Part shown: positions 17,485 to 35,558 of the stretch, in pieces | Layout: each line of letters starts with the position of its first letter | How positions within the stretch are numbered: position 1 is the first letter of the stretch | NCBI GenBank assembly: GCA_018816555.1 | Contig: JAHIVT010000082.1 | Coordinates: 1-35,688, forward strand | DNA: 35,688 nt | Reading direction: 5' to 3' | Source: Pseudomonadota bacterium | GTDB lineage: Bacteria; Desulfobacterota; Desulfobulbia; Desulfobulbales; SURF-16 | Program-made: the position numbers and the translations under genes | Notes under the pieces: model-generated | Database searches by the model: none | Told to the model about the DNA's origin: nothing | What the model saw: the letters and a program-made list of their open reading frames with translations, nothing else

Positions 17485-17561
17485 GGGCGGGTAGCTCAGC
17501 TGGATAGAGCGTTGGCCTCCGAAGCCAAAGGTCGTGAGTTCGAATCTCATCTCGCCCACCA
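17485..17561 (+). tRNA. tRNA-Arg (anticodon CCG)
   Basis: A 77-nt cloverleaf with CCA encoded. The acceptor stem GGGCGGG/CTCGCCC closes with one G-U pair; the D-arm is GCTC...GAGC; the anticodon stem is TTGGC/GCCAA with loop CTCCGAA (anticodon CCG, reading CGG); the T-loop is TTCGAAT. It marks the junction between ordinary chromosome and the AT-rich island and is a plausible integration target. Confidence 0.97.
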
Positions 17562-19274: not shown

Positions 19275-19985
19275 ATGAAAAATATGAAAATTGGTAAATC
19301 TGGAGATTCAAAACTAAATTATCATGGGAATGTTTTTATATCAGGCCTTACTGCGAGCGGTAAAACTACACACAGTTACATTTTAGCTGGAACCTATGGG
19401 TTGACATATGTCTCAGGATCACAAATTCATTTAATGAATAATGGCATGAGCCCAATTCAAGTAAGAAAATTTTGGGTTACTGATGAAGGAAAACGATTAT
19501 TAACAGAAAACCAAATCGAGGATGTTGACAAAGAACTCTTACGAATAGAAAAGAATAACACTGGTTGCATTTTTGATACCTGGATAATGCCATGGATTAA
19601 ATCCTCTGACGGTATTTCAATTTACATTATGTCATCATTAGAGTCTCGTACTATTAAAGCGGCAGTCTCACGTAGAGAAAACGACTTCATAATTGATGAA
19701 TCTTATAAAAATGAAATTCGTTATAAGGATAGAATATCAATTAATTTGCATAAAAAATATTACGGAATAGATATTGAAAACGACTTGTCTGTTTTTGATG
19801 TTATTATTGATATCAGCGAATTTATTAAAACGCCAACATTTGAATCATCTCAATCAAGCATAGAAAAGGCAAACTCTATAATAATTGCGGTTGTTGGTTA
19901 TTATTTTACAGGTAAGAAAAGTTATAGAATGGAGTTAGAAAAACACGCCAACGAAAAATATATGCTACGAAATATTCTATTGTAG
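19275..19985 (+). CDS. Cytidylate-kinase-like P-loop protein
   Basis: A 236-aa P-loop NTPase. Walker A is GLTASGKT (24-31), preceded by the beta-strand NVFISG. The later part has the kinase lid arginines (AAVSRREND) and a segment DRISINLHKKYYGIDIEND followed by FDVIIDIS, the layout of cytidylate-kinase-like proteins (R...YG.D...D..IDT/S). The natural substrate is unknown; a nucleotide-monophosphate-kinase activity is expected from the fold. The start is not backed by a strong ribosome site; the ATG nine nt downstream is also possible. It converges on the glycosyltransferase gene. Confidence 0.7.
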   Translation: MKNMKIGKSGDSKLNYHGNVFISGLTASGKTTHSYILAGTYGLTYVSGSQIHLMNNGMSPIQVRKFWVTDEGKRLLTENQIEDVDKELLRIEKNNTGCIFDTWIMPWIKSSDGISIYIMSSLESRTIKAAVSRRENDFIIDESYKNEIRYKDRISINLHKKYYGIDIENDLSVFDVIIDISEFIKTPTFESSQSSIEKANSIIIAVVGYYFTGKKSYRMELEKHANEKYMLRNILL

Positions 19986-21323: not shown

Positions 21324-21811
21324 GTCTTTCTGGCAGTGATATTTCTTGAAACAACTCTGTTTCAATCGGTAAATTAAAGACATCAATCCCGCATGTTTTA
21401 CACTTTTTTCGGTGGAATTACCAAGTTTCTCCGTTGGGTTCCTGATTTGTGGCCATATTAAAAGCAGCAGAGAAATTTGTGGCTACTGTTCGTCGCACGA
21501 AGCATCAGGAAACATCTAAAATTCCTGATTCCATTCAAGGCAATAGATTACCAATCTAAATCTTTCGATTTGAGCATTTCATAAATGGCCGCGACAATTT
21601 GCCATATTTGCTTTTACTCCATCATTTTGTAAAGGTTGTCAGGATAGGTAATAATACTTAAACGGTGTGCGTGACATGGACACATGACAAGCATATGCAA
21701 ATAGGTCAGTTTTTGAAATGTGAATTTTAAGGGTCTTTACTCAGAAAACTTGCATTTCAAGACCTGTCCCCAAAGTTTTGTTTGAAATTCAGGACAGCGA
21801 GGGGAATATTC
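21324..21811. other. Gene-poor gap with gene remnants and a REP-like hairpin
   Basis: No intact gene. 21324-21480 carries minus-strand remnant peptides (see the molybdenum-carrier entry). 21600-21781 is AT-rich and ends in a hairpin and a sequence CAAGACCTGTCCCCAAAG of the kind seen near REP-associated elements. Confidence 0.5.
21703..21765. repeat. REP-like imperfect inverted repeat
   Basis: AGGTC (21703-21707) and TTGAAATG (21713-21720) are repeated in inverted order as CATTTCAA-GACCT (21753-21765). The left arm has a 5-nt insertion, giving 13 paired bases and a bulge. It sits directly before the three-gene operon. Confidence 0.6.
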
Positions 21812-22519
21812 ATGAAATCAATCAACATTCAGATTATCAAAATAAGTTACCCTACATTGACCAACAGTGAATACATATCACTTTCTAAGCAAATAGAATT
21901 TCTTAATGGTAAAGATACGCTAAATGGCCAAAATGTTGAACTTTTAAGTTATGACAAACTACATATCGATTTCTCTATATCATGGGCTGAACAACGTACT
22001 TTTAAAGGTATCGTAACGGGCGATAATGTTGAAGAAATAATCCTTGATATTCATAGAAAAGCTATTTGTCGATTTCGTTTTCAAGATAACACATTACTCA
22101 GTAATGGCTTGAACCGCCAGTACTCTAAAATGTTGCAAATAATCTGGCCGAACCACTCTCTGCGCCCTGCTTATTCAGAGTTTAAGTTTAACCTTAAAGA
22201 ACTCATCAACAACAGTCTTATCGAAAATTTTATCAAGCCCACCCTGTCTGATCTACTGATTGACGATTTACCTGTAGAATCAATTCCTGCAGCAACACTT
22301 CATATAAAACAATGTAATTTGAGTGAGTTGCGTAATCTTATATTTGGCACCAATGCAACAATAAGACGGTTCTCTTGCGTCCCAAAAAATAAAGAATTTG
22401 ATTTGGTTACCATTTCAGGCCGAGGGGGCGTAAAAGTTAGTGGTGAATTCCTCGATTGGGAACAGCCAGTCAATTTTGCAGAATTACTTTTAGAAAATAT
22501 TAATCTGTTAGGAGAATAA
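21812..22519 (+). CDS. Orphan protein, first gene of a three-gene operon
   Basis: A 235-aa protein I cannot assign. I chose the ATG at 21812 because GAGGGGA lies at ideal distance; the frame is open back to 21782. No signal peptide, membrane segment or catalytic signature is visible. The sequence alternates beta-prone stretches (NIQIIKISYPTL, KLHIDFSISW, FDLVTISGRGGVKVSG) with a central helical part, suggesting a recognition or adaptor domain. It ends 4 nt before the next start, so the operon is tightly coupled. Confidence 0.7.
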   Translation: MKSINIQIIKISYPTLTNSEYISLSKQIEFLNGKDTLNGQNVELLSYDKLHIDFSISWAEQRTFKGIVTGDNVEEIILDIHRKAICRFRFQDNTLLSNGLNRQYSKMLQIIWPNHSLRPAYSEFKFNLKELINNSLIENFIKPTLSDLLIDDLPVESIPAATLHIKQCNLSELRNLIFGTNATIRRFSCVPKNKEFDLVTISGRGGVKVSGEFLDWEQPVNFAELLLENINLLGE

Positions 22520-22523
22520 TTTA

Positions 22524-23429
22524 ATGCCAGGTGAACAAAGCAGAGAAGGTTGGGCCAACACTTCACTTTTTGCTTCTCTCGTGGAGAACTTCGATTGGGT
22601 GCTGAGAGGTCCAATTGATCAAAATATGGATTGTGAAAAATGTCAACCGTACGCAAATGGAAAGCCAAGGACTCATGGCGTTGATGCAATTTTTACTTTC
22701 ACATGCCCATATACCCGCAGAACAAGAGCAGTAATTGTCGATGGAAAAAGATATACCTTTAAATCTGTTGGTGGTCCGGCGACAATTAAATCATGGCTTA
22801 ATGATTCAACTAAAACAGCTTTACATGCACGCGATTCAATAAATTCTTTAAGCGCACAAAGAAATTTACCAAATGACACACTTATCGATACGGTAATGGT
22901 TGTATGGGATTGCCATGAGGGGTGGGATCAAGCAAAGTCAAAAGAGTGGATTAAAGGTATTCGATTAGGCCACACCCCAGTACCAGCACTGTCAGTTTTT
23001 TTATCAACAAAAGAACATTTAGGCCGTCTGCAAACATTATCTCAATTTAGACATACTGTTCATTCCTTAGAGTTTCTTTACTCTCCTGAAAAAATGCCTA
23101 TCTGGTCGAAAACTTTAACGCCTGAATTATTGCACTCATCAATTTTACTCATTAGATATCAAAAATCAGATTCTCAAAACAAGATTATGGGTGTTTTATA
23201 TTTTGATACTGAAACCCCAAGTCGTATCCGTTTTTTAGTCAAATACCTAGGTTACGCAGGTCTCTTAACCCATGATAACATTACAATTCATGTTCAGTGC
23301 CCGCAGAATGAACTTGAGCACTTTGAAAATTATTTTTCTACCGAGTTTGCGTCGATTGAAAACTTGCATGGGATTGGTATATCGAAATTTAAATTTGAAA
23401 AAATCGTTCGCGCCCCTTTTGAGTCGTAG
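22524..23429 (+). CDS. Putative PD-(D/E)XK-like nuclease, second gene of the operon
   Basis: A 301-aa protein without a named family. Its N-terminal third fits a restriction-like nuclease core: Glu21 (SLVENFDW), Asp54 in GVDAIFTF at the end of a strand, then Asp73-x-Lys75 in VIVDGKRYTFKS, a D-(18)-D-x-K spacing normal for PD-(D/E)XK enzymes. A possible metal-binding pair C37-x2-C40 precedes it. The rest (about 110-300) contains strands such as DTVMVVWDCHEGW and NKIMGVLYFDTETP. Nuclease activity is an inference from the motif only. The gene lies 4 nt after the first gene and 9 nt before the third. Confidence 0.65.
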   Translation: MPGEQSREGWANTSLFASLVENFDWVLRGPIDQNMDCEKCQPYANGKPRTHGVDAIFTFTCPYTRRTRAVIVDGKRYTFKSVGGPATIKSWLNDSTKTALHARDSINSLSAQRNLPNDTLIDTVMVVWDCHEGWDQAKSKEWIKGIRLGHTPVPALSVFLSTKEHLGRLQTLSQFRHTVHSLEFLYSPEKMPIWSKTLTPELLHSSILLIRYQKSDSQNKIMGVLYFDTETPSRIRFLVKYLGYAGLLTHDNITIHVQCPQNELEHFENYFSTEFASIENLHGIGISKFKFEKIVRAPFES

Positions 23430-23438
23430 GAGGTTTTT

Positions 23439-24557
23439 ATGTTGATTGAAAGTCACAATAATCCATTTCCAAGGCGCTCTGATGTAGAAACACTACTTGA
23501 GGATGGCAGTTACAAAGAAATAGTTTCAATTTTTGCAGAACAAGGAGTTTTCTTGCTTGGAAGAAAACAGATTATGCCAGATCTCATGACTCGTTTTGCC
23601 TTTGGAGAAGATTTTTATGAACGAGTATTTTCTACACTTTCTAAAGCTACATACGGCATATCTATTACCGGGCTTAGGGTGAGCATGCCGAGCGGCATAA
23701 ATTTGTTAACTTTTTTGCAGGAACAGATTGAATCACAACAACCAGAACACAAATATGAGCCCAAAATAACTCAAGTTTTTGAGCAGAGCAAAAATGTTTT
23801 AGCGAAAATTCAGTATACCAAACTGAACCCAAGATTTTCTGAATATAGACGCCGTGATATTTACCAAATAGAGGTCTCAGCAAGTAAAATTAATGAAGAT
23901 GAGGTCGAGTTTAGAACATACCCCAAAACATCCACTGATTCCTTAGTAGCAAGGGATGTAATCATAGCATCTCTCGATAAAATTAATTGCGTTCCTAACT
24001 CAATGGATTTAGAGGAACTACCTGTTCAATCTAGAGTTGATTTATTTGATCAAATTTTGAGAGGAACGCCCGGTGCTATTTGGCGAGTAGATGAAGTTTG
24101 TGGACTCACTGTACGTGCTGGCACGCCCTCTTCGGGTGCAGATAACGACTCTGATGTTGAACAAAGCCTTGATGAATCAGATGTGCGTATGCTGCAAAGT
24201 GCCATTTTAGAGGGAAAAAATCTCCGTGACCATAAAATCGTGCAAGAATTATTGAATGATGAATTTTATTTTTCGGCAGCAACTTTTTGGGCTTCGAAAC
24301 CGGGAGTTGGAGGTTCTCTTGATCAATACAAAGTTAGAATTGAATTTAAGAAAAAACCTCAAGTTTTGGTTGTCAATGTTTCAGACAGTCGTTCCCCAAA
24401 TGCCGATAATGAAAGTTGGGAGTTCCAGGATCTGTCTCCTAACATTGGGCGGGAAACGATTGAATACTTCTGGAATGAAGTTCATCTAAAATATACAGGT
24501 TGCAGGGAAAGAATTGCTGAAGGTGCCCGTCGTGTACGACGTCGTGAAACCCCGTAG
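23439..24557 (+). CDS. Orphan protein, third gene of the operon
   Basis: A 372-aa protein with no family I recognise. A strong ribosome site (GTAGGAGG) overlaps the end of the preceding gene. The N-terminal 130 residues look alpha-helical, the middle is mixed, with an acidic linker near residues 228-245 (SSGADNDSDVEQSLDESD), and the last residues are very basic (ARRVRRRETP), which could contact nucleic acid. No membrane segment. With its two upstream neighbours it forms a transferable-looking cassette bounded by a REP-like hairpin and a 208-nt gap. Confidence 0.7.
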   Translation: MLIESHNNPFPRRSDVETLLEDGSYKEIVSIFAEQGVFLLGRKQIMPDLMTRFAFGEDFYERVFSTLSKATYGISITGLRVSMPSGINLLTFLQEQIESQQPEHKYEPKITQVFEQSKNVLAKIQYTKLNPRFSEYRRRDIYQIEVSASKINEDEVEFRTYPKTSTDSLVARDVIIASLDKINCVPNSMDLEELPVQSRVDLFDQILRGTPGAIWRVDEVCGLTVRAGTPSSGADNDSDVEQSLDESDVRMLQSAILEGKNLRDHKIVQELLNDEFYFSAATFWASKPGVGGSLDQYKVRIEFKKKPQVLVVNVSDSRSPNADNESWEFQDLSPNIGRETIEYFWNEVHLKYTGCRERIAEGARRVRRRETP

Positions 24558-24765
24558 AAGCAGGCATCAATCAGGCAAAAACAGCCCTGAATAGGGTAAA
24601 GAAACAACATGAAAGCAACATAGACGAGCCAAAAAGCTGAATAGCTGAGATAGAAAGCTGGATCGAGGATATCCGGAGATTTTCAAAAATGAGACTCTCC
24701 TGGCCACGCAAGTTATCGCAAAAACGGCTTTTTCTGCATACTCGTTAGTTTCCTTGGTAAGCAGC

Positions 24766-26454
24766 ATGAATCTCCTGAACCCTGAAAAATTGATAGCTCT
24801 TTCGCAGGCCCCGGCCGACGCGGACGAATTTGAAGAGTGGTGTAGTCAGAACGATATCCTGCCCTTCCTTTCCGAAGAAGCGAATGATGAGAATGTTCTG
24901 ATTTATGCCAGCCTCGACCATGTCTATATCTACGCGCTGCTAGTGCCTGAGAACGTAAATCTCGAAGATCACGGTGATGATCTTCGAGGTTGGAGCTCAA
25001 ATCCTTTCTCCGGATGGAGTCTGGTCGCAAGCCAGGAGGATGTTTGGATTGAAAGGCCCTGTCAGTCCGAAGGGAGTGAAATTCTAAAGACTGCAACTCA
25101 AATAATTTTTGGCCGTTCATTCGAGGGACACACTGGCGACTCCAGCTACTTTGAAGTAAATCAGGAAATCACACAGGTTCTGGACCTTCACTACGTGACT
25201 GAAAGAAATGCATGGTGCAGGTTGGATCAGCACGGCGACATCGAGGATTGCATCAGTATACTTGACCTCGAAGGTGGCCGAGCTGTCTTAGTGAAGGCTG
25301 AGGTCTTGAATAAATATTGCGCAGTCTCTCGAACAAAGCTTCTAAGAATGTTCGATTTCACAAGGTATCGAAAAGGAAATTTCTCTGGATGGGGAGATGG
25401 TCGAGATGAACGACATCTTCCTGAGCACGACGGAATAGCCGTGTGGCTAACAGTCCAGCCTGGAGTTGGTAGCTACTCGCGCGGGATCCAGCTAATCGAG
25501 CCAAGAATATCACTGGCTTCAGTCCGTTCTGAAATCTGGGGAACTCATTACGACGACAGGGAATATGCTAGCTTTATTGCCCAAGATTGGAAGAATAAAC
25601 GAATAACAGAAATATCATGTGCGCCCGGCGCGACAGCCAACTACTTCACTGAATCAGATCTTCCTTTTGAACTTAGCCCTGCTTATTTTCGGCCCGAAGT
25701 GCTTTCTAAGTACAAAGCTGATCGTCAGAAATACACTTTGCAAGATCGCTCCATCACTTGCCGCGGGGCGTGGCATATAGAAACATACGACATCAACGAA
25801 GCGGGCCAAGTACATACTTATGTTGTGTACCTGCGCCGACTCCCCTATGAGGAGCAGTTGCATTGGAAACAGTTTAATGAGGCACCGAAATCAGGGCTGT
25901 CAAAAAGAGCCTTCACGACCGACTTTGAAGGTCAGTGGCACGACGAGTACGACGCTCTTCCTGCTTTGAAAACTAGGCTGCGTGGACTTGTTGAGAGCAA
26001 ATGTCCTTGGTGGAATTTGCCAAATCCTGATCAGATTGAAGAAGTTCACTATCCGGTGACTGCATCACGAGATGAATGGGCAAACGAAATCATGGCATTG
26101 GATCAATTGGTTGTCGAAGGGCTGGATCAAAAGTGGTTGAAGGCAAAAGCTATAGAGCTGGGCCAAACACCGTCAGCGACGATGCGTCAGTTAAAGTTGC
26201 TGGAGTCCTGCTTGGTCGGGCTAGGGTTTGAGGAGGAACATGCGCATGATCTCATGAGCCCCTTTCACGAACTCCACAACCTGAGATCTTTGGTTCGAGG
26301 TCATCGATGGGGCTCGGATGCTGCCAGTGAGAGCAAACGAGTTTTAAAAGAGTTTGGCGAGTACAAGGCCCATTTCAAATCCCTTTGCCAGCGTTGCGAT
26401 GAATCACTTGAGCTAATTATTGCTGGTTTCTCAGAGCATGAAGCCGGTGCGTAA
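24766..26454 (+). CDS. Large defence-type protein with C-terminal HEPN-like motif
   Basis: A 562-aa protein from the ATG at 24766 (an in-frame TTG lies at 24754). No named family for the N-terminal about 420 residues, which are Trp- and acid-rich and probably beta-rich. The last 110 residues are helical and contain FHELHNLRSLVRGHRWG: an R-x5-H (Arg507-His513) in the position and context of HEPN ribonucleases. The combination of a long sensing region and a C-terminal HEPN recalls ApeA-type abortive-infection proteins, but the similarity is architectural, not proven. Higher GC than the operon before it, suggesting a separate origin. No partner gene is adjacent. Confidence 0.7.
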   Translation: MNLLNPEKLIALSQAPADADEFEEWCSQNDILPFLSEEANDENVLIYASLDHVYIYALLVPENVNLEDHGDDLRGWSSNPFSGWSLVASQEDVWIERPCQSEGSEILKTATQIIFGRSFEGHTGDSSYFEVNQEITQVLDLHYVTERNAWCRLDQHGDIEDCISILDLEGGRAVLVKAEVLNKYCAVSRTKLLRMFDFTRYRKGNFSGWGDGRDERHLPEHDGIAVWLTVQPGVGSYSRGIQLIEPRISLASVRSEIWGTHYDDREYASFIAQDWKNKRITEISCAPGATANYFTESDLPFELSPAYFRPEVLSKYKADRQKYTLQDRSITCRGAWHIETYDINEAGQVHTYVVYLRRLPYEEQLHWKQFNEAPKSGLSKRAFTTDFEGQWHDEYDALPALKTRLRGLVESKCPWWNLPNPDQIEEVHYPVTASRDEWANEIMALDQLVVEGLDQKWLKAKAIELGQTPSATMRQLKLLESCLVGLGFEEEHAHDLMSPFHELHNLRSLVRGHRWGSDAASESKRVLKEFGEYKAHFKSLCQRCDESLELIIAGFSEHEAGA

Positions 26455-26817: not shown

Positions 26818-27669
26818 ATGATAAGTCTGGTATCCCCTGAATACAATTTGGAAACGTTCTGCGATCACATGCGAGGGAAAGACCCTTCGGCTGTCATGGA
26901 GGGCGCTAGTGCGGAGATTAGCTATGCACGCCGTCTCCACCGTGAAGCCACGAAGGACTCTGATTTCCGCAAAGGATCGAGAGGCAGGAAATATTGTGAG
27001 AATCTCCAAAAACTTATCTCGTTGGTTATGAACGGTTCAGTTCCGGCTGGTAGCACCCCTGAATTTCTTACTGCTGTGAAACCGCTCATTCAGCAACTCC
27101 TTCAGAAATGGGAAATTGGAAATCTGCGACAAGTATTCTCTAATCTTCAGGCATCAGAAAGCCTTAGTCTGCCTAAGTCAGTTGATCCGCTTGTTCTCGT
27201 GATTTCGAGAGCTGAGGTTGACGCAATGGATACATCAGCAGCTTTACGTGTGTTGAAAAGACTCACCGAATCGCCAGACACAGCGAGAGAATTCATGGAA
27301 CGTGTTGACATTTCATTCCACGGCTATGATCACACTCAGCAGGAATTGTTTGAGATCCCAGAGGTCCGTAACTTCGTATATCAGCTCGACGAACAGTTCC
27401 CATTCTGGCTCTATTTCTTGTCAAAACGCCATCTCGGGCTTCAGCGTCTTCTTCTATGTTTTTTACCACCGTTCCTTACTGATGATGGGCGGCGAAAAAT
27501 CTTTCCAGAACGGATCAATGATTTACTTACGAAACGATGGTTCCCGGCGTTAAATCATATTTGTGTGTATGTAGGCTTCCCCGAAAACCAGATCGAAGGG
27601 CTTACAGAACGAGCGTTGGCTTATATTACTGATGGCAGGTTCCCTCTTGATGCAGAAGCATTCGCCTAA
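26818..27669 (+). CDS. Soluble orphan protein
   Basis: A 283-aa cytosolic protein. AGGAGA is well placed before the ATG. The N-terminal half is helical and basic; the C-terminal half has a distinctive conserved-looking block, DISFHGYDHTQQELFEIPEV followed by QFPFWLYFLSK. I have a weak impression that this block occurs in bacterial proteins annotated as chlororespiratory-reduction-6-like, with no known function. The stop codon lies within GCCTAAC, an R-box-like heptamer, as is common for integron cassette genes; a full attC site is not visible. Confidence 0.65.
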   Translation: MISLVSPEYNLETFCDHMRGKDPSAVMEGASAEISYARRLHREATKDSDFRKGSRGRKYCENLQKLISLVMNGSVPAGSTPEFLTAVKPLIQQLLQKWEIGNLRQVFSNLQASESLSLPKSVDPLVLVISRAEVDAMDTSAALRVLKRLTESPDTAREFMERVDISFHGYDHTQQELFEIPEVRNFVYQLDEQFPFWLYFLSKRHLGLQRLLLCFLPPFLTDDGRRKIFPERINDLLTKRWFPALNHICVYVGFPENQIEGLTERALAYITDGRFPLDAEAFA

Positions 27670-30436: not shown

Positions 30437-30733
30437 TCAGGCGACAAGTTCTTCCACTCCATCTCGAAAAACGGCCCGCACTTCGAGATGACCACCAAGG
30501 GCCTCAACATAGCGCTGCAGCACGCTTAACGTTATATTAGGGCGCCGTTCAAGCTCAGAAAGAGCTGATTGTGACAGTCCCATTGAAGCGGCAAGCTCTT
30601 TCTGGGTGATATTATGGGCTTTACGCACCTGCTGCAGGCGGAGCGCGGCAACTTTTTCCTGTGCTTTCCGGCGTACTTCATCCCTTTGTTCTGGAGAAAA
30701 TTTTTCCTGCATGATTTGGTCGAGCGTTTTCAT
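30437..30733 (-). CDS. higA: HigA-type XRE antitoxin
   Basis: A 98-aa protein with a helix-turn-helix (ITQKELAASMGLSQSALSEL) at about residues 42-61, typical of Xre/HigA2 antitoxins that neutralise the toxin and repress the operon. The frame is open to 30787, but the ATG at 30733 has an ideal AAGGAGAT before it. It lies 10 nt after the toxin stop, in the toxin-first order typical of higBA. Confidence 0.9.
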   Translation of the reverse strand: MKTLDQIMQEKFSPEQRDEVRRKAQEKVAALRLQQVRKAHNITQKELAASMGLSQSALSELERRPNITLSVLQRYVEALGGHLEVRAVFRDGVEELVA

Positions 30734-30743
30734 GACGATCTCC

Positions 30744-31100
30744 TTATTTTTTCTCAATACTCTGAAGATACTCAGCAAAAAGCTCATCAGCTTCAGCGAC
30801 TAACCGTTTGTAGAATCTTGCTTGATCCTTCCCTTTTTTGTCGCCACCATTGAGGATCACGGCCTGGCGATGGATGTCGAAGACAAAAAGGCTCCTGTAG
30901 ACATGGCCGGAAACTTTGGTTCGCAATTCCTTCATATTGGAAAACCGTGAACCTTTCACCTGATCAACATAGGGACGGCCAAGTGATGGACCCATTTGGG
31001 CTAATACTTGAAGATCCGTAGCGATGGCTATTTTCTCCTTTTCAAGAAGGTGATCAAACCAGGCTTCATACGCATCAGTGAAAATAATGGTCCATTCCAT
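30744..31100 (-). CDS. higB: HigB/RelE-superfamily toxin (phage Gp49-like)
   Basis: A 118-aa RelE-fold protein, expected to cleave mRNA at the ribosome. Family markers are FSNMKELRTKVSGHVYRSLF, followed by VILNGGDKKGKDQARFYKRL and a helical tail (AEADELFAEYL), as in Gp49-like HigB toxins. It precedes the antitoxin gene. The region directly upstream (31101-31122) is very AT-rich, with GTATA and TATAC ends, a plausible promoter/operator for HigA autoregulation. Confidence 0.88.
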   Translation of the reverse strand: MEWTIIFTDAYEAWFDHLLEKEKIAIATDLQVLAQMGPSLGRPYVDQVKGSRFSNMKELRTKVSGHVYRSLFVFDIHRQAVILNGGDKKGKDQARFYKRLVAEADELFAEYLQSIEKK

Positions 31101-31245: not shown

Positions 31246-32083
31246 TTACCCATAAAGCGTTTCAATCCACCTGATTGCTTCTGAATCATTCACCTTGCCG
31301 AGATATCTCTGAGTCGTTGATAAATCCGCGTGCCGGAGAATTACTTTGCTGACAATTTCAATTGGGGTGCCGGATCTCGATGCATAAGTCGCAGCATGAC
31401 GTCTGAGATCATGAGGGCGCAATTCAATATCGACAAGTTTCCCTGCTTTCTTGACCATCGACCAGGCAGCAACATAAGAGATCGGGAAAATGCGATCAGT
31501 TAACACGATATTCTTGGCTTTAACGTAGTCGTTTAACCTTACCAATATTTTTCGCGGAACATAAACCGTCTCTCCAGTTCTGCCGCTTTTAGGGTTCTGG
31601 ATGGTCAGCGATCTTTCCTGAATATCACAGGGCTTGAGGTTCAAAACTTCCCCTATTCTCATCCCGCCCCTCGCCATGAGCTCCAGAATTAGTCTGTTCC
31701 GAGAGTTCATGGTGCGAAAGATAATTTCATCAACCGTCTCTTTATCAACGATTTGCCATTGGATGGCATGAGGTCGCTTGAATATTTTTTTGATAACCGA
31801 AGTATTACAGGGGTTGGTCAACGCCGGCATGGCGGTGTTGATGCTGAAATTGTAAAAAGATGCGAGAACCGAGTAACGATTTCTTTTGGTCGCCTGCTTA
31901 TTGTTCTTGGTGACTGATAAAAGGAATGCCAGGACTTCCTCATGAGAGATGCTGGCCAGATCACGTTTACCGAATTGGGCTGTGAAACGGTGGAGAACAA
32001 ACTCACAGGTCTTGACGGTATTTTTTTTTGGAATTGGACCGGTGATACTGCAAATGAAAATCGACCGCTTGAGAAACTTTCAT
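31246..32083 (-). pseudogene. Frameshifted tyrosine recombinase/integrase
   Basis: A 278-aa recombinase if one base is skipped. A strong AGGAGGT precedes ATG 32083 (MKVSQAVDFHLQYHRSNSKK). At a run of nine A (plus strand T9, 32021-32029) the frame breaks and ends at 32003; the other frame continues NTVKTCEFVLHRFTAQFGKR (core-binding domain) into the catalytic domain. Catalytic residues are all present: Arg in GGMRIGEVL, His-x-x-Arg in RPHDLRRHAATYA, His in LRHADLSTTQ and Tyr in QRYLG. It resembles short Xer-like or transposon recombinases, not IntI. Either a fresh pseudogene, a sequencing error, or expression by slippage at the A-run. Confidence 0.85.
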
Positions 32084-34295: not shown

Positions 34296-35558
34296 TTGAA
34301 AGTAGCAATAATATTTGGAGTTAGTGAATACCAGAGCTATAGCTCACTCCGTGCGTGCAAGAATGATTCAGACCTGGTGCACAAGATATTTCAGAAGCTA
34401 GGTAAGTTTGATGACATATGCTTCATGGCAGGAAACATTAAAGGATTTGAGGCCAAACAAAAGATTACGGAGTTTGTCAAAAAGCATAAGGAAAATTCTG
34501 TCGAGGAACTCGTTTTTTATTATACGGGGCATGGAGCTCGATATGATGATGACTTTTTCTACGTTTTTTCAGATTTCAATGAGAAACGAAAAGAAATAAC
34601 AGCGTTACGAAACTCTGAACTTGATGGGTTAATTCGAAATCTCAACCCAAAGCTGACAGTAAAGGTTATTGATGCATGCTATTCTGGATCTACTTATATA
34701 AAATCTGATGACGACATCAAGCCTACCCTTGAAAAATCGGCCAAAGAAAATAGCCTTAACAACCTGTATTTTCTCCATTCGTCCAGTTCAGAAGAAACAT
34801 CTCTGGCCAATGATTTGTATAGCTTTTTTACTTTCAGCTTTTGCAAGTCAATAGCTGAACTAGATGGAGCTATTCGCTATAGAGATATTATGGCTTATGT
34901 GGCAGATGACATGTCTCAAAGAGGATACCCTAAACCCACATTTGTAGTTCAAGCTGATAACACCGAAGTATTTGGTGAGGTAGATGGAGAATTCAGGAAG
35001 TATGTCAGAGAAAGCCTGAATATTCACGTTGAGGATCAAGATTTACCAGAAAAAAATAAAACCAAGCTTAATGAAGATGAAAAAGAAGATCTGCTGCTAA
35101 AAACAATATCAAGAAAAAGCTCAGAGGAATTTTGCTCAGAAGAAGAAGCATCAAAGAACATAACGCTCATTAAGGAGTTGCTTGATCAGTCCCGTTGGCC
35201 TGACCAAATTTTGGGTGTTTTCGAAATTGAAATGGAAGATATTGACCATACTAGCACTATAAAAAATGGCGTGGAAATTGGTCGATGGCTGAATAAAAAC
35301 TCAGAGGAAAGTTATTTTTCGTACCCTACATACGGCACAGAGACATATTTTGAAGAAGAGTACAAGAAACTGCCTAAAAAGCCGAGCAAGGCGACGGATA
35401 TATTGGGCGGTTTGTATTCCTTAAGGCGGTCACTGGGGTTTGATGATGACCATGAATACAAATTAGAGAAAATTGAAAAAAAACGTAGGTTTGTTGATGG
35501 TTTTGAGTATTCAGCTGATTCACCATTTCGTGGCTTACAATTAATGTCTGGAGTTTAG
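34296..35558 (+). CDS. Caspase-fold (peptidase C14-like) protease
   Basis: A 420-aa protein starting with TTG at 34296, GGAGAT upstream. Residues 1-215 are a caspase-like domain: VAIIFGVSEYQSYSSL at the start, catalytic His79 in FYYTGHGARYDDDF and catalytic Cys128 in VIDACYSGS, so the dyad is intact. Residues 240-420 are charged and helical, with no recognised domain, and probably serve as sensor or partner-binding part. Bacterial caspase-like proteases are known effectors of cell suicide in anti-phage systems and signalling. The gene begins 34 nt after an attC-like hairpin; partner genes, if any, would be beyond 35688. 35559-35688 shows no gene. Confidence 0.88.
   Translation: MKVAIIFGVSEYQSYSSLRACKNDSDLVHKIFQKLGKFDDICFMAGNIKGFEAKQKITEFVKKHKENSVEELVFYYTGHGARYDDDFFYVFSDFNEKRKEITALRNSELDGLIRNLNPKLTVKVIDACYSGSTYIKSDDDIKPTLEKSAKENSLNNLYFLHSSSSEETSLANDLYSFFTFSFCKSIAELDGAIRYRDIMAYVADDMSQRGYPKPTFVVQADNTEVFGEVDGEFRKYVRESLNIHVEDQDLPEKNKTKLNEDEKEDLLLKTISRKSSEEFCSEEEASKNITLIKELLDQSRWPDQILGVFEIEMEDIDHTSTIKNGVEIGRWLNKNSEESYFSYPTYGTETYFEEEYKKLPKKPSKATDILGGLYSLRRSLGFDDDHEYKLEKIEKKRRFVDGFEYSADSPFRGLQLMSGV

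Follow-up and report, generated by a model that had tools for sequence, protein, structure and literature searches.

A far-diverged, reshuffled branch of the defence system 3HP in a genomic island of a Desulfobulbales bacterium

We describe three adjacent genes, called A, B and C here, in a 35,688-nucleotide stretch of DNA from a bacterium of the order Desulfobulbales (contig JAHIVT010000082.1, positions 1 to 35,688; this whole stretch is referred to as the window). The trio is a far-diverged, reshuffled deep branch of the known defence system 3HP (Rst_3HP), which consists of the proteins Hp1, Hp2 and Hp3. As a whole, it is likely to be a divergent 3HP member with permuted gene order, in which Hp1 (gene B) is a nuclease, Hp2 (gene C) its partner and Hp3 (gene A) an RdgC-like DNA binder. 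New here are the assignment of Hp1 to the nucleases, the kinship of Hp1 and Hp2 with GapS4a and GapS4b, and the predicted RdgC-like fold of Hp3. A preliminary description of the locus had proposed a self-contained defence system, possibly an undescribed one. The layout agrees with our results, but the system is already known as 3HP. The copy in the window may be active.

Identity and distribution of the trio

The first lead to the identity of the trio came from the PHROGs database, where B matches phrog_7059 (E=1.2e-7) and C matches phrog_6531 (E=1.2e-9). Against hidden Markov models (HMMs) of the dereplicated homologues, built without the window, B obtains an E-value of 8.3e-20 and C of 1.7e-19; when the most similar locus, L007, is left out as well, the values are 6.4e-14 and 8e-14. 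BLASTP aligns B and C with the Hp1 and Hp2 of L007 over most of their length (4e-8 and 6e-14).

L007 is the longer copy of an unannotated faecal record, MT836957, found by tblastn with C, whose three open reading frames (ORFs) are ordered as in the window. In L007 integrase-like genes flank the trio, small ORFs are adjacent to it and a tRNA-Gly is about 3 kb away; the three proteins match phrog_5850, phrog_7059 and phrog_6531. By eye, we take the neighbouring genes to be integrase-like and the record to be of Bacteroidales character.

Among 257 genomes of the window's own order, Hp1 is present in four, including the window's own; a search intended to cover the class spanned the same number of genomes, and the same four matched. 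Two of these (G193 and G213) contain all three families together in the order B-C-A, while in a third (G019) B is cut off at the contig end. Downstream of the G193 trio and on the same strand (L016, 1071-5959, minus) are two DNA-methylase-like genes and a gene for an 846-aa GIY-YIG/helicase-like protein, neighbours that by eye resemble a restriction-modification system.

With the C homologue of G193 as the query, eight phage and seven plasmid records matched. We examined four of the former and six of the latter, and the rest were taken as near-copies by match position and identity. In nine of the ten examined records an annotated three-gene cassette lies at the match, and in the tenth, the unannotated CP035920, all three genes were found by HMM. 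The carriers are a P2-like Klebsiella phage, the Pseudomonas phages 54-4 and 99-2, a Vibrio phage, and plasmids of Pseudomonas, Aliarcobacter, Azospirillum, Vibrio and E. coli.

In the Vibrio phage record, the genes of the cassette carry the annotation Rst_3HP Hp1, Hp2 and Hp3. The PADLOC models for Hp1, Hp2 and Hp3 match all three proteins of this phage and of G193, as well as the Hp1 of one further locus (L024), but none of the proteins of L007 and, up to E=1, none of the window. The comparison with curated defence models that the preliminary description had suggested is negative for the window trio itself and positive for its relatives. A wholly new system was considered and rejected, given the annotation of the phage record and the PADLOC matches to the canonical relatives.

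By its name, we take Rst_3HP to be the trio for which protection against phage P1 was reported. PMC9122126 reports that a three-gene system of the P2 hotspot in E. coli, described in 2022 as lacking clear domains, protects against P1, and a figure legend there gives HP as hypothetical protein. Rst_3HP is listed among the systems found in majority on prophages in PMC9090908, which cites PMC9122126 for Rousset's systems. No paper on the mechanism of 3HP was found in the open literature searched.

To see what accompanies these genes, we used an alignment of ten Hp1 proteins as the query, and the best 80 of 95 confirmed viral contigs were added to the collection. The resulting scan covers 95 loci, window included, after 14 repeats of the same places were left out. 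The order Hp1-Hp2-Hp3 is found in 86 loci, Hp3-Hp1-Hp2 in L007, Hp1 only in five and Hp1-Hp2 in two, and the window counts as Hp1-Hp2 at E<=1e-3. Apart from the window, the partial loci number seven, and each of them is cut by the end of its record. In each of the 87 complete loci, which represent 73 distinct Hp1 frames, the trio is on one strand, and the synteny proposed as a check on the preliminary description is conserved. Since a locus entered the collection by resembling Hp1 or Hp2, the counts describe what accompanies these two genes and not how frequent the system is. At least one of the complete loci has its Hp3 frame starting 1317 nt past the Hp2 stop.

Searches with single sequences were mostly without family matches, that is with B or C in genomes and viral contigs, with B and C in plasmids and with B in phages. 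The same holds for the search with C in the 257 genomes of the order and for a DNA-level search of E. coli genomes. Some of these absences are false: the C homologues of G193 and G213 surfaced only with the phrog_6531 profile. The same profile gave no matches in 297 genomes of the phylum; the window's own genome was missed too, so this is no evidence of absence. Two-sequence alignments searched against the viral contigs returned L007 again or nothing, and one that included the C homologue of G193 returned nothing.

The window and L007 share the order Hp3-Hp1-Hp2, in contrast to the 86 loci with Hp1-Hp2-Hp3. They also group together in the Hp1 tree (44 rows, support 98/96) and in the Hp2 tree (47 rows, 100/100). 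Two points weigh against this grouping: the branches leading to the pair are very long in both trees, and such placements are unsure, and the long-branch warning for the Hp2 tree names this very pair. The permuted gene order does not depend on the trees and indicates the same grouping.

A predicted nuclease, its partner and a predicted RdgC-like fold

According to the preliminary description, the middle protein has Glu21, Asp54 and Asp73-x-Lys75 in the spacing of restriction nucleases. In the alignment of 33 Hp1 proteins, D54 and K75 occur in 33/33, and position 73 is D in 32/33 and E in 1/33. Two further acidic residues, E4 and E201, are also invariant. Glu21 is poorly kept, with E in only 3/33 proteins, and was rejected as a catalytic residue.

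The structure of B was modelled using AlphaFold2 with the 33 aligned proteins (predicted local distance difference test, pLDDT, 77.6; predicted template-modelling score, pTM, 0.76). The predicted core consists of helix 4-23, strands 33-36, 50-60 and 67-77, helix 85-104 and strand 120-129. D54 is located between strands 50-53 and 55-60, and D73-x-K75 on strand 67-77. PD-(D/E)XK enzymes likewise place an acidic residue and the (D/E)-x-K motif on successive core strands. With both the motif spacing and the helix-strands-helix-strand core present in the model, Hp1 is assigned to the PD-(D/E)XK nucleases, and the core that the preliminary description expected in the middle protein is seen in the prediction. 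As a deoxyribonuclease, Hp1 would cut DNA.

Using VIA-align, the N-terminal part of B is aligned with Z values of 4.7-7.2 to SduA, an R2 retrotransposon protein, HamA, SSO0001 (a Cas4), AddAB, MspJI, MGME1, TnsA and PaqCI. The structural comparisons also contain evidence that weighs against a nuclease. Rows for the C-terminal half of B are equally high (an African swine fever virus RNA-polymerase chain at 7.2, acetyl-CoA carboxylases at about 5), Z values up to 7.2 fall where chance arrangements are common, and Foldseek finds nothing in the PDB for the model of B at E<=0.001 (best E 0.019). Because the C-terminal rows score alike, the nuclease call stands on the motif, the fold and the invariance of the residues, and not on the Z values. 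Profile searches against PDB sequences were at chance level for all three families (best E 0.77 for Hp1, 0.6 for Hp2 and 0.57 for Hp3).

Remote relatives of Hp1 and Hp2 were identified in the NCBIfam families GapS4a and GapS4b (NF047933, NF047934). The GapS4a HMM matches 13/33 Hp1 proteins at E<=0.01 (best 4.9e-12), and GapS4b matches 3/36 Hp2 proteins at E<=0.1 (best 5.2e-6). For the Hp1 of G213 (L003) the GapS4a match covers 226 positions with an E-value of 8.2e-18, and for B it has an E-value of 0.0062 and 15.8 bits; both are far below the 270-bit cut-off. A search with GapS4a in 395 genomes gave no matches, and the control was silent too. No paper naming GapS4a was found in the open literature searched.

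The very basic tail noted for the third protein in the preliminary description is real in C, where the last 25 residues contain eight K/R and three D/E and form the most basic tail among 36 Hp2 proteins. It is not a trait of the Hp2 family, as the tail is net basic in just 8/35 of the others. Among the scattered weak Pfam matches of Hp2, the widest is DUF4518 (PF15008), found in 7/36 proteins at E<=0.1 with a best value of 1.5e-5.

Gene A, which had been thought to encode an adaptor, is instead very probably Hp3, a conclusion drawn from HMM rank, size, place and model together. Against the Hp3 HMM with L007 in and the window out, A obtains an E-value of 0.012, and without L007 0.065; both times it is the top ORF of the window. 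When the scanned loci are searched for ORFs of 150-320 aa and the 676 obtained are ranked by the Hp3 HMM, 87 score higher, which equals the number of Hp3 loci, followed by A with 8.7 bits, and the next has 2.2. Shuffling or reversing A gave 1,001 copies, of which 897 were scored and none reaches the 9.0 bits of the real sequence. The A protein of L007, which is of equal size and place, matches both phrog_5850 and the Hp3 HMM.

A model of A was built with 37 aligned proteins (pLDDT 82.2, pTM 0.78). With Foldseek, E. coli RdgC is its sole PDB match at E<=0.001 (2.7e-5, probability 1.00). VIA-align superposes 209 residues on RdgC (PDB 2owl, 2owy) with Z values of 9.7 and 9.1, a root-mean-square deviation of 6.2 and 6-11% identity; the next best are Iml3/CENP-L and TBP chains (5.4-6.7). 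When the model is compared with viral structure models, a phage RdgC ranks second (2.8e-4), no phage Hp3 is present by name in the best 50 rows, and several of the top rows are unnamed or uncharacterised. The authors of the phage 54-4 record label its Hp3 as an RdgC-like exonuclease. A is predicted to share the fold of RdgC, by structure only.

A number of observations weigh against these two readings of A. The best shuffled copy reaches 8.1 bits, close to the real score, and the sequence alone does not decide that A is Hp3. BLASTP finds nothing between A of the window and A of L007, phrog_5850 has no match in the window's own genome, and the hhalign probability of A with Hp3 is just 38.5%. 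The RdgC fold is no independent evidence on A alone, because the rows used for the model included canonical Hp3 proteins. The Pfam family RdgC (PF04381) is absent from those matched at E<=0.1 by 37 Hp3 members, and hhalign of Hp3 against ten RdgC proteins (eight from 12 genome loci and two from phages) gives 0.4%.

Possible modes of action

Hp1 is probably a DNA-cutting enzyme that works with a DNA-binding partner. RdgC is a toroidal DNA-binding protein, and Hp3 probably binds or encircles duplex DNA. It could load on, or mark, invading DNA, such as phage or plasmid DNA during injection, recombination or replication, and then dock or license the Hp1-Hp2 nuclease, which would cut the marked DNA. 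Hp2 would be an obligate partner of Hp1, as GapS4b presumably is for GapS4a. We infer both that Hp1, Hp2 and Hp3 join in one complex and what triggers it.

A different mode of action, possible but rather unlikely in our estimate, is abortive infection of a toxin-antitoxin-like type. Hp1 would then be a toxin that damages host DNA, held back by Hp2, Hp3 or both and freed on infection. Restrained PD-(D/E)XK effectors exist, and the tight coupling of the three proteins is compatible with one; however, the cassette lacks a small antitoxin-like gene, and the RdgC-like fold of A suits DNA handling better than toxin neutralisation.

We consider it improbable that A is unrelated to Hp3 and that B and C form a GAPS4-like two-gene nuclease with a passenger. 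The weak HMM match of A, its small distance from the best shuffled copy and the failure of BLASTP with A of L007 would fit such a passenger, as would the remote relation of Hp1 and Hp2 to GapS4a and GapS4b. However, A ranks 88th of the 676 ORFs, directly after the 87 higher frames and well above the next, agrees in size and place with the A of L007, and has a fairly confident model with an RdgC-like fold.

It is hardly probable that the trio, as an RdgC-like protein plus a nuclease, serves mobile elements in recombination or maintenance and is not a defence system. Its presence on plasmids and on phages, filamentous ones among them, frequently close to integrases, and the association of RdgC with recombination (given in the title of a structure entry) would suit such a module, but the trio is found as cargo in unrelated element types, lies in two records between the portal and replication-endonuclease genes of a P2-like phage, i.e. 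in the P2 hotspot, and PMC9122126 reports a three-gene system of this hotspot as protective against P1. A defence cassette with a DNA-cutting Hp1 remains our preferred reading.

The genomic island and comparison with known systems

The features of the locus are listed in Table 1. The three genes are co-directional, and the gaps of 4 nt between A and B (22520-22523) and 9 nt between B and C (23430-23438) agree with the preliminary description, as do the ORFs, strand and coordinates. The start of A was taken as the ATG, while the ORF list opens A upstream at a TTG (21782). By eye, a purine-rich stretch precedes each of the three ATG codons, in line with the ribosome sites described before. The gap on the downstream side is likewise confirmed, with 208 nt from the stop of C to the next ATG (24766). 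A, B and C match no PADLOC family, and in Pfam nothing is found above the cut-offs, with sub-threshold matches for B only.

Table 1. Features of the window and two related phage cassettes.
Feature	Coordinates	Strand	Length	Description
Gene A	21812..22519	+	235 aa	Very probably a divergent Hp3, counterpart of phrog_5850 / PADLOC PDLC03006; predicted RdgC-like fold
Gene B	22524..23429	+	301 aa	Hp1, predicted PD-(D/E)XK nuclease; catalytic candidates D54, D73, K75; invariant E4, E201
Gene C	23439..24557	+	372 aa	Hp2, partner protein; remotely related to GapS4b
tRNA-Arg (CCG)	17485..17561	+		ARAGORN; borders the low-GC island holding the trio
(d)CMP-kinase-like	19275-19985	+	236 aa	In the island; TIGR02173 stretch, 4.2e-16, 59.4 bits (cut-off 102.1)
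Crr6-like	26818-27669	+	283 aa	PF08847 stretch, 26.9 bits (cut-off 25)
HigBA-like	30437-31100	-		Two overlapping small genes resembling a toxin-antitoxin pair (by eye)
Recombinase-like	31246-31830	-	194 aa	ORF resembling the C-terminal, catalytic portion of tyrosine recombinases (by eye); possibly a remnant of the island integrase
Caspase-like	34296-35558	+		N-terminal half like caspase-type peptidases, YTGHG and DACYSG motifs (by eye)
3HP, phage 54-4	L020 485-3252			Tubulavirales (filamentous), record about 13 kb
3HP, phage 99-2	L021 4917-7814			Tubulavirales (filamentous), record about 13 kb

The island location is supported by the tRNA-Arg together with a drop in GC content, which in 1-kb windows is 47-59% over 1-17 kb versus 30-39% over 18-24 kb. 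Past the tRNA-Arg it falls from about 55% to about 31%, and from 24 kb on it is back up to 38-48%. The 3' end of the tRNA has no repeat elsewhere in the window, with up to three mismatches allowed, and for this reason the far end of the island may lie beyond the contig. A hairpin resembling repetitive extragenic palindromic (REP) elements had been described on one side of the trio, but no such G+C-rich hairpin is reported in 21380-21830 or 24540-24800. The inverted repeats flanking the trio are an imperfect A+T-rich one of 25 nt (21704-21769, 76%) and two short ones, and a hairpin of 12 pairs at 24961-24988 is inside the next gene downstream. Promoter-like sites (7, versus 10.5 in shuffled sequence) and terminator-like sites (3 versus 2.7) show no excess.

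The Crr6 family is known from cyanobacteria and chloroplasts, and the Crr6-like protein also has a sub-threshold match to the NCBIfam model of the NdhI maturation factor. Caspase-type peptidases are common effectors in bacterial defence.

Among the known systems, Shedu SduA and Hachiman HamA are in the top VIA-align rows for the N-terminal half of B (Z 7.2 and 6.3), although no sequence kinship to B was found. Both are PD-(D/E)XK nucleases whose partners are unlike those of 3HP. E. coli RdgC has the fold predicted for A along almost the entire length of A, but it is longer (about 300 aa versus 235 aa) and the sequence kinship is undetectable.

GAPS4 is a two-gene system. Hp1 and Hp2 are remote homologues of GapS4a and GapS4b, while 3HP differs by its third gene and B of the window stays under the GapS4a cut-off. 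Judging by these matches, 3HP seems distantly related to GAPS4, with one gene more. Tentatively, and with more doubt than conviction, we suggest that 3HP and GAPS4 may form one superfamily of paired PD-(D/E)XK nucleases. 3HP would then be ring-guided, with Hp3 as a captured RdgC-type clamp that recognises invading DNA through its ends or its topology and brings in Hp1-Hp2, and the permuted clade, found in two distant bacterial groups, would be a second, so far undetected type.

The closest system is 3HP itself (PADLOC PDLC03004-PDLC03006). The window agrees with it in the families, with Hp3 at the detection limit, in protein sizes, strand, tight packing and carriage on mobile elements or islands: it contains homologues of Hp1 and Hp2 within three adjacent, co-oriented and tightly packed genes. 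It differs in its order Hp3-Hp1-Hp2, in its identity of about 11-21% and in escaping the PADLOC models. The usual gene order is common but not shown to be defining, and the missing PADLOC match reflects a detection limit and not a trait. As the permuted clade shows, a deep branch of 3HP escapes the PADLOC models of 2023, and with a predicted nuclease in Hp1, the link to GapS4a and GapS4b and an RdgC-like Hp3, the system now has point mutations to test.

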